From Planctomycetota bacterium (GTDB lineage Bacteria > Planctomycetota > Planctomycetia > Pirellulales > Pirellulaceae): DNA of 64,000 nucleotides. Below the pieces are notes generated by a model, which saw only the letters and a program-made list of their open reading frames with translations, made no database searches and was not told where the DNA came from. The DNA is taken from assembly GCA_016872775.1 (NCBI GenBank), contig VGZA01000022.1, forward strand, positions 1 to 64,000. The letters are read 5' to 3'. Both the position numbers and the translations under genes were made by a program. Below are positions 4,293 through 21,518 of the stretch, one piece after another; the stretch's first letter is position 1; each line of letters starts with the position of its first letter.

Positions 4293-4324
4293 CTTGAAGT
4301 AGATCCAAAGAACTGCTGCCGGTG

Positions 4325-4495
4325 GTGTTGTGCGATCGCAATACCTCCAGGGAAGTGGAGTGCAATTCTCCCGCCGCCCCGCGACTGTAATGGGTAACGA
4401 ACGCCAGCGATCCACTGGTCGATACGCATCGACTGGGAAGGTTGGCCCGTAGGATGACCCGAAGCCAGGAATCTGACCGGCAGTCCGAAACAGCA
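4325..4495 (+). promoter_or_regulatory. Cobalamin (B12) riboswitch
   Basis: The aptamer core is readable: GGGAAGTGGAGTGCAATTCT around 4350, then the diagnostic GCCCCGCGACTGTAATGGG box (the CCCGC-n-ACTGTA 'B12 box' region), then CGAAGCCAGGAATCTGACCG near 4460-4479, matching the conserved GAAGxCAGGAxACCTGxC half. It ends about 30 nt before the ATG of the TonB receptor gene. The intervening segment contains the ribosome-binding site GGGAAGGA. Known members repress B12 uptake or synthesis genes when cobalamin binds. Whether control here is translational or by termination is not decided; I see no Rho-independent terminator between aptamer and start codon, which favours ribosome-binding-site sequestration. 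Confidence 0.93.
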
Positions 4496-17535: not shown

Positions 17536-18882
17536 TTACCCCATGACTTCAGAGATCGGCCGGGGATCGCTGACCAGATGGGTAGGCCGCCCCTCCGGCG
17601 TGTAGAGGATCTTATTGGGATCGATTCCCAGTTTGCGATAGACGGTGGATACGAAGTTCTCCGGTGCCAGCACGCGGTCGCAAGCAGAATATCCGTTTCG
17701 GTCGGTGGCGCCGACGATCAATCCGCCGGGCGTTTTTCCGCCGGCCATGAACACCGACATCGCGTTGGCCCAATGGTCGCGGCCTGCCGTTGTCGAGCCC
17801 GGCAACGTCGTAATCTGGGGCGTGCGGCCGAATTCGCCCAACATCACCACCAACACCTCGTCCAACAAGCCGCGATCGTCGAGGTCCCCGATCAGGGCCG
17901 ATACTCCTTGGTCGATAAGTGCCGTGTGTTTCGGCAAGTCTGTGAAGATCCCCGAATGGCTGTCCCAGCCGCCATCGTTGATCGTGATAAACGGGACGCC
18001 AGACTCGACGAGTCGTCGCGCCAGCAGCAGCCGCTGGCCAAACGCGGTACGGCCGTAGCGGTCGCGCGTCGCGGGTTGTTCCTGGGAAATATCGAGGCCG
18101 CGTTGTGCTTCCGTCGAGGTCACCAGTTCGTATCCTTGGCGGTAGTAAGAGTCGACGGTGGCGGCCGGATCGGCAACCATCGGGTCCTCGAATCTCTTGA
18201 GGCGGTCGACCATCGCCCGCAGATCGCGGCGCGTGGAAAAGCGATCCGTCGCCAGGCTCGAAGGCGGCGACACGTCGCGTACGCGAAAATTCGCTTGATT
18301 CGGGTCATCCTCGACGACAAACGGCGCGAATCGACCTCCCAGAAAATTCGGTCCTCCCGAGCGGGTCATGCTGGGAATGGAAAAGTAAGCGGGAAGCTGA
18401 TTGCGCTGGGGAATTTCATGCGCAACGACGGCTCCCATGCTGGGGTGATAACTCACAAAGGCCCCGCAGCCCACAGGAATCCGAGGCGGCGCACCGGTCA
18501 TCATGTAGTGATTACCGGCCCCGTGATTGCCCTGATCGTGGCGGATGGAGCGGATGACGGCGAACTTGTCGGAGCAGGCCGCCAGCCGGGGCAGCGTTTC
18601 GCAGAACTGCACCCCTGGGACGCGCGTCGCGATCGGCGCCATTTCGCCACGAATCTCGGCCGGCGCGTCGGGCTTAGGATCAAACGTTTCAAAGTGCGTC
18701 GGGCCACCATCCAGCCAGATCAATATGCAGGCCCGCGCTGCCGCTCGGCCGTCGGATGGTTCTCCCGCCGCAAGCGACCGCAGCCGCAGCATGTCGACCA
18801 GACTGGTTCCGAAAAACGCACCCAACCCCAGCCGCAGGCAATCGCGGCGGCTCGGTCCCTGACAGTTTCTGTAGCTCGACAT
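17536..18882 (-). CDS. DUF1501 (sulfatase-like) Tat protein
   Basis: 448 residues. The N-terminus has SRRDCLRLGLGAFFG, a Tat-like signal. Family hallmarks are ILIWLDGGPTHFETFDPKP, IRSIRHDQGNHGAGNHYMM, NDGGWDSHSGIF and MLGEFGRTPQI followed by GRDHW, which give the conserved Asp/His metal-like residues shared with the alkaline phosphatase/sulfatase superfamily. DUF1501 proteins are abundant in planctomycetes, usually next to DUF1549/DUF1553 cytochromes, which are absent here. ATG 18882 follows GGAGG at eight bases. First gene of the apparent DUF1501-NHL-M28 operon. Catalytic activity has not been established for the family to my knowledge. Confidence 0.9.
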   Translation of the reverse strand: MSSYRNCQGPSRRDCLRLGLGAFFGTSLVDMLRLRSLAAGEPSDGRAAARACILIWLDGGPTHFETFDPKPDAPAEIRGEMAPIATRVPGVQFCETLPRLAACSDKFAVIRSIRHDQGNHGAGNHYMMTGAPPRIPVGCGAFVSYHPSMGAVVAHEIPQRNQLPAYFSIPSMTRSGGPNFLGGRFAPFVVEDDPNQANFRVRDVSPPSSLATDRFSTRRDLRAMVDRLKRFEDPMVADPAATVDSYYRQGYELVTSTEAQRGLDISQEQPATRDRYGRTAFGQRLLLARRLVESGVPFITINDGGWDSHSGIFTDLPKHTALIDQGVSALIGDLDDRGLLDEVLVVMLGEFGRTPQITTLPGSTTAGRDHWANAMSVFMAGGKTPGGLIVGATDRNGYSACDRVLAPENFVSTVYRKLGIDPNKILYTPEGRPTHLVSDPRPISEVMG

Positions 18883-19606
18883 CGAATAGTCCTCCGGTCG
18901 ACACTATAGTCGACTCCTGTTCGGCGGGCAATTCAGCCGCGGGCCTGCTGGTGCCCAGGGAAGTCGGCGACAGACTTACCCTGGGCAACCAGCCGCCTGC
19001 TACCCATTCCAATCCAACGATGACAGGCCCGCGTGTCGAGCGCCGCTAGCTGCCGAGGATCGGCTTGCGCGGCTGCGTTCGACTTTGTCCGGCGCCCCGC
19101 GGAAGCGCGGCGTCGGCGGGTATGGGAACAGCCCGTCCATGCGACCATTCCCATCCCTCGCCGCTCGCCTCGCACCGCTCCCTACCAACCTCACGCAAGC
19201 CTGAATTTCCTTTTCTTGTCGACACCGAGTCTCGTACGGACCGTATTCTGGTTTTGAGCATCCGACCGCGAGGCACGAACAAGTTCGCGGCGGAGGCGAC
19301 ACATTTGTCGATCGCGATGCCAGGGAACATTCGAGCCGGGACGAACGCCCGCCTGGCTCGCGATCGAATTCACACGCCCACCCGGATCGCGAAACTTGTT
19401 TCGCCTTTCCGTAACGCGAAACTTGTTTCGCAACCTGCCCTTCGTTCAACCTCACTCGAAAACACATTCACTCGCCACATATATACAACGTATTTCGACC
19501 CCCAAAACCGACGCGATTTGGAAAGAATTTTCCCAAATTGTTTGCCGACGCGCATCCGCTCCACACGCTAGCAACACCCAATGCTCTCAATCTGAAAAAA
19601 ACGATC
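18883..19606. other. Long non-coding stretch upstream of the DUF1501 gene
   Basis: No reading frame here has family-like content; short open frames are arginine- and serine-rich shadows. The interval holds two copies of a 16-nt palindrome (19389-19431), a shorter related palindrome CGAACAAGTTCG near 19277-19288, and an AT-rich segment around 19475-19540 that contrasts with the GC-rich surroundings and contains an imperfect inverted repeat (ATTTGG...CCAAAT near 19516-19537). Confidence 0.6.
19389..19431. repeat. Two copies of a 16-nt palindromic repeat
   Basis: GCGAAACTTGTTTCGC occurs exactly at 19389-19404 and again at 19416-19431, 11 bases apart. Each copy is a seven-base inverted repeat around TT. 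A third exact copy is at 19948-19963. This could be a REP-like mobile palindrome or a protein-binding site; it is not part of a recognisable insertion sequence. Confidence 0.8.
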
Positions 19607-19635
19607 TTGACCCTGAACGATGATTGGCCTATCTT
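19607..19635 (+). promoter_or_regulatory. Sigma-70-like promoter for the ncRNA
   Basis: TTGACC (19607-19612) and TATCTT (19630-19635) are separated by exactly 17 bases, giving a -35 match of five of six and a -10 match of four to five of six. The predicted start, near 19642, coincides with the beginning of a perfect hairpin. No open reading frame of convincing quality follows before the terminator at 19878-19917. Confidence 0.6.
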
Positions 19636-19641
19636 CCGCCC

Positions 19642-19917
19642 CACGATCAATTTGATCGTGGTGAGTTTATCAAGCAGTCCACGTGGAGGTGTCTGCACTG
19701 GAGCGAGTGATTTCGGTCGCTCGTCTCTGCGGACCGCGAGGCGAAACGTTGGCACGGATGCCAACGTCCGCTTCGAAAAAGACCGCGCGGCGCACTTATG
19801 ATCGAGGATTGACGGTGCGTGCAGGAAGCGCGGAACGTCAGACCGTCCAATCGCTCCCGGAAAAAGTGGTGTCCTTTGCCCCCCCTAGGACCCATTCGAT
19901 CCGGGGGCCTTTTTTTT
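19642..19917 (+). ncRNA. Putative structured non-coding RNA, about 276 nt, unassigned
   Basis: The unit has its own promoter and a Rho-independent terminator. Between them are stable hairpins: a 5' hairpin with ten-base arms (19641-19661); GAGCGA/TCGCTC with a ten-base loop (about 19701-19722); CGTTGGCA-CGGA-TGCCAACG (19747-19766) enclosed by GCGGA/TCCGC; and a ten-pair stem GATTGACGGT with ACCGTCCAATC having one bulge (about 19807-19854). I could not find the signatures of tmRNA, RNase P RNA, SRP RNA or 6S RNA. A short in-frame reading (19683-19946) runs through the terminator and has no family-like content, so a small mRNA is less likely. It converges on the NTase-HD gene. Confidence 0.6.
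19878..19917 (+). terminator. Rho-independent terminator
   Basis: A GCCCCC/GGGGGC stem extended by GGA/TCC across a four-base bulge closes a short loop and is followed by an uninterrupted run of eight T residues (19910-19917). The T-run lies on the plus strand, so it ends plus-strand transcription. Confidence 0.8.
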
Positions 19918-19941: not shown

Positions 19942-19969
19942 CGTAGTGCGAAACTTGTTTCGCGCTACG
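19942..19969. repeat. Third palindrome copy inside a longer hairpin
   Basis: The 16-nt palindrome GCGAAACTTGTTTCGC (19948-19963) is extended on both sides by CGTAGT and GCTACG, giving a 13-pair hairpin with one wobble pair around a TT turn. It lies nine bases past the stop of the minus-strand NTase-HD gene and may help end that transcript, although no T-run follows. Confidence 0.65.
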
Positions 19970-19977
19970 GTGCTCGC

Positions 19978-21084
19978 TCAGATACCGAAAGTGCGATCCA
20001 GATCGCGGATATAGTCCAGGGCTTCGTCGATGTCGGGGACCTCTACGCCACAGGCTCGCCCTTCGCGGTCGCAACGGCCAAGGATCAGCAGTTCTTCGTA
20101 ACTTTCGTTTTCCTGCAGGCGGCGTTTGGCTCGCGCCCCCAGAGTCCCCGAATAAAGGGCATGCGCTTCCATGTGGTGCTTGATCAGCCATGCAGTTCGC
20201 TGCGTGATGAACTCACCCAGCGCCTCCAGTCCCGCTTCCACATGCTGCCGGGGCTCGATCGCCTTGCCAACATCGTGCAGCAGCGCCGCGAGCAGCAGTT
20301 CCTCGTCGTACGGCACCTGTTCGCGCGCCAACTCGAACACTTGCAGAGAATGGTACAGCGCGTCACCCTCGGGATGATAACGCGGATCCTGCTTGACGTT
20401 CTCCAAAGGAAGAAGCAACGACTCGTAGACGCGAAAGCGGTCGACCTGCTCTTCGGCGTCACGCAGGCTGGCGTCCAGATCGAGATCGGGGTATTCGCTC
20501 GCCAGGCGCTGCTCGAGCTGTGCGATCGACGCCGATTCGATCGCCTTACCGGTAATCGAACTGCGAAACGCATAACCGATCCAGCTTGTCGCGTAGACGG
20601 TCAACTCGATCGGGAAACGGTCGCGAAGGTGGATATGCGTGTATATCCGTTCCTCACCTTGCTTGCGGACCCGCTTGTGCTCGACCTCGTGCACCAGCCC
20701 CTCCTCCTCCAACGCCGTACGAATCGCTTCCACACTGTCGCAGAACAGATGCAGGTCGATGTCGGAGCCTTGGCGAATATGCCCGGTGAGAACGCTCCCG
20801 ATAAGACGGGGTCGGAAGCGACGCAGCAGTCGCATCACGCGCAGGGCGTCCAGTCGCATGTCGAGCAAATCCCTGGTGCGCTGTTCGCCTTCGTGAAGTC
20901 GCGCCAGCATCTGAATCTCGTCGCGGATTTCCGCGTTCGTGGGGAGATCGGCCGGTTTGACCCATCCTTGGCAGATACGCCTCGCGGCCTTCAGTTTGGC
21001 TCGATAATACTCCGACTCCTGTCGGCTGTACATCAAACGAGCGGCCTCGTAAGTAATCTGACGCCGCAGTTTCGTACCGGTCAT
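19978..21084 (-). CDS. Nucleotidyltransferase-HD phosphohydrolase protein
   Basis: 368 residues. An N-terminal helical part precedes a Pol-beta-type nucleotidyltransferase core, LIGSVLTGHIRQGSDIDLHL (95-112) with catalytic Asp108 and Asp110, then a C-terminal HD domain with His245, the His270-Asp271 pair in LLHDVGKAIEP and a later KHHMEAH. The combination recalls GlnD or tRNA-nucleotidyltransferase-type proteins, but the order and length fit neither; no CCA-adding motifs are seen. Function may be nucleotidylation with reversal or nucleotide second-messenger turnover (inference). ATG 21084 is used; upstream in-frame sequence is intergenic. Its 3' end faces the ncRNA terminator 60 bp away. Confidence 0.78.
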   Translation of the reverse strand: MTGTKLRRQITYEAARLMYSRQESEYYRAKLKAARRICQGWVKPADLPTNAEIRDEIQMLARLHEGEQRTRDLLDMRLDALRVMRLLRRFRPRLIGSVLTGHIRQGSDIDLHLFCDSVEAIRTALEEEGLVHEVEHKRVRKQGEERIYTHIHLRDRFPIELTVYATSWIGYAFRSSITGKAIESASIAQLEQRLASEYPDLDLDASLRDAEEQVDRFRVYESLLLPLENVKQDPRYHPEGDALYHSLQVFELAREQVPYDEELLLAALLHDVGKAIEPRQHVEAGLEALGEFITQRTAWLIKHHMEAHALYSGTLGARAKRRLQENESYEELLILGRCDREGRACGVEVPDIDEALDYIRDLDRTFGI

Positions 21085-21251
21085 GATTGTGCGCCGGGAA
21101 TGCCCGATCGGCGCGAAGGGCAATGCAAGTAAGAGCCACCAAAATCGTGGCGTCGACGTTGGATGCGTTGCCGCAAGTATAGGCGCGCGGTCATCCCAGG
21201 GCAACCTTGCACCAGCCGACGACCGGATCTCGGGATGCCGGCCTCGCCGCT

Positions 21252-21518
21252 TCAGCGCCGCGTCCACTGCGTGTAGTTGCGCGACGTGCCGAAATGACGC
21301 GACCAATGGTGGCGCGGGCTCACACCGAACCAGCCGTAGGAATAGCTCTGCGCGTGCACCTCTTGAGCCTGCCCGGGATAGTACCCGTGTGTCGCCTTAA
21401 AAGAAGCACTTGATTTTGGTGTCCGCAGAATCAAGTAGCTGGGATAATCGCCCCCGCGGAGCGGTGCGTTACCTGCCATCGCAAAAAGGATCAAGGCCGC
21501 CAGAATAAGCGTTCGCAC
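21252..21518 (-). CDS. Small secreted protein, aromatic/His-rich C-terminus
   Basis: 88 residues starting at GTG 21518, which is preceded by GGGGGAGGG at a good distance; longer in-frame readings lack a signal sequence. VRTLILAALILFAMAGNAPL is a signal peptide. The mature part is rich in Tyr, His, Ser and Trp and ends YSYGWFGVSPRHHWSRHFG then a YTQW motif. The pattern YGWFG...H...HFG...YTQW looks conserved-by-design rather than random, and I recall similar short planctomycete proteins, but no function is known. It is transcribed alone, 167 bp upstream of the NTase-HD gene. Confidence 0.65.
   Translation of the reverse strand: MRTLILAALILFAMAGNAPLRGGDYPSYLILRTPKSSASFKATHGYYPGQAQEVHAQSYSYGWFGVSPRHHWSRHFGTSRNYTQWTRR

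Follow-up and report, generated by a model that had tools for sequence, protein, structure and literature searches.

A two-module small RNA conserved across a planctomycete class, with CsrA-type hairpins and a C-rich terminator loop

We analysed a 64,000-nt stretch of a planctomycete contig (the window, to which coordinates refer) and found that it contains a real, free-standing small-RNA gene, which is conserved across a planctomycete class and has no Rfam family. The RNA combines a 5' module, whose hairpins present CsrA-type motifs, with a 3' terminator module that carries a C-rich loop. These features suggest RNA control of CsrA. In the reading that we favour, to which we give roughly an even chance, the gene would encode a class-wide two-module RNA that binds CsrA, probably sequestering it, its C-rich loop serving a second partner, perhaps mRNA.

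Results

Anatomy of the transcription unit

The gene lies, as originally described, between two minus-strand genes (17536–18882 and 19978–21306), on the strand opposite to both. From their translations, we take these neighbours to be DUF1501-like and nucleotidyltransferase/HD-like, respectively. The TTGACC-N17-TATCTT promoter on which the original prediction was built is present and was found again in relatives (Table 1). It is preceded by an A-tract: among 71 relatives, the two positions 7–8 nt 5' of TTGAC are A in 94–96%, and at least five A per 6 nt occur upstream of the promoter in 44% of the relatives versus 7% in a control stretch. The 1.2 kb around the RNA holds three promoter-like sites, against 0.4 expected from shuffles.

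The entire RNA folds with an energy of −123.4 kcal/mol (z = −4.5 against shuffled sequence), bearing out the claim of a structured RNA, and its separate parts likewise fold better than shuffled sequence. The hairpin expected at the start does exist, with the dimensions given in Table 1 rather than ten-base arms, and its sequence is not conserved among the relatives read. The terminator with eight T residues is also in place; it was overlooked by a simple terminator scan because its loop holds an inner stem.

Two further elements were observed in the window. The palindrome GCGAAACTTGTTTCGC has three exact copies around the RNA gene (19389–19404, 19416–19431, and 19948–19963) and 17 copies genome-wide when up to one mismatch is allowed, resembling a REP element; it was not seen at the relatives' loci. 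The Rfam search also located a cobalamin riboswitch at 4303–4495 (78.7 bits).

Table 1 Features of the RNA gene in the window. R1 and R2 are covariance models of the 3' domain (domain B) and the 5' module, respectively; A1 is an alignment
Feature	Coordinates	Strand	Evidence
A-tract, UP-element-like, upstream of the −35 box	19595–19601	+	base composition in 71 relatives
Promoter: TTGACC (19607–19612), 17-nt spacer, TATCTT (19630–19635); then GC-rich CCGCCCC discriminator	19607–19635	+	window sequence and conservation in relatives
5' hairpin, nine pairs, 3-nt loop	19641–19661	+	folding
Non-coding RNA, ~276 nt; predicted start ~19642, end at T8	19642–19917	+	promoter and terminator conservation, folding z = −4.5
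Domain A: palindrome CCACGTGG, helices P1 and P2, P2 enclosing CsrA-type hairpin 1	19677–19776	+	R2 model, covariation
Helix P1	19691–19697 with 19728–19734	+	
Helix P2	19737–19743 with 19769–19775	+	
CsrA-type hairpin 1, CGTTGG-CACGGATG-CCAACG; loop motif CANGGANG at 19753–19760	19747–19766	+	motif and hairpin statistics; consensus PMC6692469
CsrA-type hairpin 2; loop motif CAGGAAG at 19822–19828	19810–19840	+	motif statistics, folding; PMC7652899
Domain B: CCAATCG; terminator stem 19853–19908 (19853–19861 with 19900–19908); T8 19910–19917	19844–19917	+	alignment A1, R1 and class-wide search, folding z = −3.9
Domain B loop TTGCCCCCCCT, on inner stem GTCCT/AGGAC	19876–19886	+	alignment A1

Distribution and conservation

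A DNA-level homology search, one of the checks proposed with the original prediction, matched the RNA in 40 of 60 relatives; the named relatives among public genomes are Pirellulales, Planctomycetaceae, and other Planctomycetota assemblies. The 30 loci examined are built alike: TTGACC-N17-TATTCT-CCCGCC is followed by a variable middle, and the 3' end is nearly fixed. The promoter was recognized by a strict pattern in 28 of them and by a looser pattern in the remaining two. Within the host's order, R1 matched 64 of the 66 genomes sampled; elsewhere in the class it scored lower, matching a second large family and some members of a third. Beyond the class this search gave no credible copy; the matches there were weak, mostly partial (~40 nt) and near threshold, so we treated them as chance and rejected a phylum-wide presence. 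The lineage specificity claimed at the outset thus applies to a wide lineage, which takes in most of the order along with some other members of the class. A genome belonging to a different family of the class matches the 3' domain at four places, suggesting paralogous RNA copies.

No neighbouring gene is conserved across the 30 loci; the RNA is therefore encoded by a free-standing gene, and a cis element of a conserved neighbour was rejected. A coding RNA was rejected as well. The longest inner frames differ in both position and sequence among eight RNAs inspected, in agreement with the earlier failure to see a convincing coding frame, and the C-rich loop of the window RNA has one C more than that of 27 other aligned relatives, which would shift a frame.

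Comparison with known RNA families

The covariance search against Rfam, likewise proposed beforehand, returned no family for the window RNA at the gathering score or at a relaxed threshold (E up to 10). Specifically, no match was obtained at either level with the models of CsrB, CsrC, RsmY, PrrB/RsmZ, 6S RNA (RF00013), tmRNA (RF00023), RNase P RNA (RF00010), and bacterial SRP RNA. As had been predicted, the RNA is neither tmRNA nor RNase P RNA, both of which were found at other loci of the host genome, nor 6S RNA. A full-length 6S candidate lies at 163685–163896 of host contig C2; it scores 34 bits against a gathering score of 46.4, and is probably a divergent planctomycete 6S RNA. Judged by its sequence, the window RNA is not a member of the CsrB family.

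The 5' module carries covarying helices and CsrA-type hairpins

Domain A was found by R2 in 29 of 60 relatives, with one copy per genome, and adjoins domain B at all loci where both were seen. On the window, R2 gives one strong match of 82.9 bits, the window sequence being among those used to build the model. The elements common to the relatives are P1 (GUCUGCA/UGCGGAC), P2 (CGAAGCG/CGCUUCG), and a hairpin GGCA-NGGA-UGCC inside P2. The helices of the 5' half are supported by compensatory changes, a check also proposed initially: for 14 of the 24 pairs in the alignment A2, at least one sequence has both bases replaced, compared with 7.1 (sd 1.5) in shuffles, none of 500 of which reached 14. The covariation score is 0.32, as opposed to ~0.11 if the partner strand is displaced.

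In its loop, the conserved hairpin displays CANGGANG, both N positions being free. This equals the RsmE/CsrA consensus (A/U)CANGGANG(U/A) (PMC6692469) and is close to the CsrA SELEX consensus RUACARGGAUGU; CAGGAAG, the motif of hairpin 2, matches the CAGGA(U/A/C)G repeats of CsrB (PMC7652899). The window RNA has two consensus sites, 69 nt apart, each in the loop of a CsrA-type hairpin, and most relatives have one to four such hairpins. Among 28 orthologous RNAs, CANGGANG occurs 38 times, whereas 2.9 occurrences are expected from dinucleotide shuffles. Taken together, CANGGANG and CAGGANG occur 109 times in 72 distinct RNAs; many of these counts go back to common descent of the central hairpin, and near-identical genomes contribute some of the RNAs. 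A stem of at least three further pairs underlies half of the occurrences, as opposed to 6% among control sites. In 92% of cases the first flanking pair is of a standard type; it alternates between G-C, A-U, C-G, and U-A, with the CA-GGA-G of the loop unchanged. Within the RNAs the hairpin-borne motif has a density of 2.71 per kb, as compared with 0.05 in their flanks and 0.04 in 358 kb of the host genome, a difference of ~60-fold. The second and further hairpins add evidence because they are placed elsewhere and differ between species. Ten of the 72 RNAs, mostly short and eight of them from class members outside the order, keep module 2 without the motif; CsrA binding is thus not the deepest-conserved property.

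CsrA, Hfq, and FliW in the host and its relatives

The host genome has seven CsrA genes, and CsrA is present in all 60 relatives, with three to 14 paralogues per genome (60 genomes). The RNA-binding residues L4 and R44 are intact in the two host copies translated. GGAG is enriched ~7–18 nt upstream of starts in the host genome, indicating that GGA-type ribosome-binding sites are in use. An Hfq model that is positive in E. coli and B. subtilis gave no match in 40 of 40 relatives. FliW is found in 53 of 60 relatives, and the host has a single copy directly upstream of one csrA. CsrA-antagonist RNAs driven by BarA-UvrY/GacS-GacA have been described as characteristic of Gammaproteobacteria, and FliW, a protein antagonist of CsrA, has been proposed for planctomycetes (PMC4682653). 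A literature search, with most subscription journals outside its reach, retrieved neither a planctomycete CsrA-antagonist RNA nor a planctomycete small-RNA catalogue.

The 3' module and alternative readings

Domain B is both the terminator and the deepest-conserved module, as demonstrated by the alignment A1 and the R1 search. In A1, its loop contains an invariant unpaired GCCCCCC, and the upstream CCAAUCG is nearly invariant; covariation in this domain is weak because its pairs change little. In short relatives of another family, domain B lies a short distance after a promoter, often with no CsrA hairpin. The constancy of the unpaired bases argues for a partner in trans.

One alternative is that the RNA acts by base pairing, with the C-rich loop UUGCCCCCC of domain B as a seed blocking G-rich ribosome-binding sites, and with CsrA on the 5' module being a chaperone, stabiliser or competitor rather than cargo. 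We hold this to be possible, if on the doubtful side. It would account for the greatest conservation falling on domain B and its invariant loop, which are kept in relatives without CsrA motifs, and it fits the undetected Hfq and the presence of GGGGG near some start codons of the host genome. There is also a precedent in SR1, whose pairing with ahrC is promoted by CsrA in Bacillus (PMC8501984). However, pairing of the loop with ribosome-binding regions gave no signal at 278 crudely predicted gene starts (~7% of the host genome), where it did not surpass that of shuffled loops and was not stronger close to the start than at more upstream positions, and an invariant C-rich loop could equally be a protein site. 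An RNA that joins both activities, with a CsrA-docking module and a C-rich antisense module in Hfq-less hosts with many CsrA paralogues, would both clear CsrA from GGA-type ribosome-binding sites and directly block G-rich sites; we rate this combination as unlikely.

The original prediction had called the RNA "housekeeping-like or regulatory", which was too vague on function. Regulation via CsrA fits better, given that the sequence recognized by CsrA is present in the hairpin loops. A housekeeping-like RNA of some ribonucleoprotein, in which the GGA loops are tertiary contacts, would agree with the presence of a single copy in almost every genome of the order, with the strong promoter and its A-tract, and with the stable fold. 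Yet all fixed positions of the CsrA consensus are kept in the loops, only the N positions varying, and species differ in the number and place of the hairpins. Such variation is shared with CsrA-binding RNAs but would not suit a fixed tertiary contact, and we consider this explanation quite improbable. That the conserved element is no independent RNA and instead a terminator or untranslated region of a neighbouring gene, as might be thought from the terminator in domain B and the nearby 3' end of the next gene, is scarcely credible given its own conserved promoter 190–400 nt upstream, the opposite strand of both neighbours here and the lack of a shared neighbour in 30 loci.

Discussion

Returning to CsrA sequestration as the preferred reading, we infer the following course of events from the motifs and their conservation. 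The strong promoter would yield much RNA, and the hairpins of module 1 (19677–19840), with CANGGANG or CAGGANG, would bind one or more CsrA dimers. The bound CsrA would be withheld from GGA-containing ribosome-binding sites of mRNAs, so that a rise in the RNA would lift repression by CsrA, in the manner of CsrB/RsmZ RNAs. As the terminator hairpin with the GCCCCCC loop, module 2 would end and protect the transcript, and its further role is probably to pair with G-rich sites of mRNAs or to bind a protein.

Several observations weigh against this reading. CsrB carries about 22 GGA, whereas strong sites are few per RNA here (two in the window RNA), which would make it a weak sponge unless very abundant. 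FliW, a protein that antagonises CsrA, is present in most relatives, and ten RNAs keep module 2 without the motif. Additionally, the stem of hairpin 1 is long (eight pairs), while SELEX winners for CsrA mostly had stems of four or fewer pairs (PMC7652899).

Among known systems, the closest are the CsrA/RsmA-sequestering RNAs of Gammaproteobacteria, CsrB/CsrC and RsmX/Y/Z. Like these, the window RNA is free-standing and intergenic, with its own promoter and terminator and no conserved coding frame seen, and it presents CANGGANG/CAGGANG in hairpin loops. Unlike them, it has no Rfam match and far fewer sites than CsrB, and its host, a planctomycete, has FliW and seven copies of CsrA. We take the known families to be Rfam RF00018, RF00084, RF00166, and RF00195, and we know of no conserved C-rich terminator domain in them. 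If the CsrA part is right, the RNA would work like CsrB/RsmZ, with fewer sites and with a module that those RNAs lack. SR1 of Bacillus subtilis, a base-pairing RNA helped by CsrA, resembles it in combining a proposed pairing region with CsrA contact; no sequence relation was found, however, and an SR1P-like reading frame was not seen in the eight RNAs inspected. With 6S RNA it shares being free-standing, structured and mostly single copy, but differs in giving no 6S match, the sub-threshold candidate lying at another locus.

For planctomycetes, only a protein antagonist of CsrA, FliW, had previously been proposed (PMC4682653). If the preferred reading is true, CsrA-binding RNAs would exist in another phylum, probably of independent origin and alongside FliW. 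Planctomycetes, with many CsrA genes and undetectable Hfq, would thereby gain a conserved regulatory RNA with exact sites to mutate.
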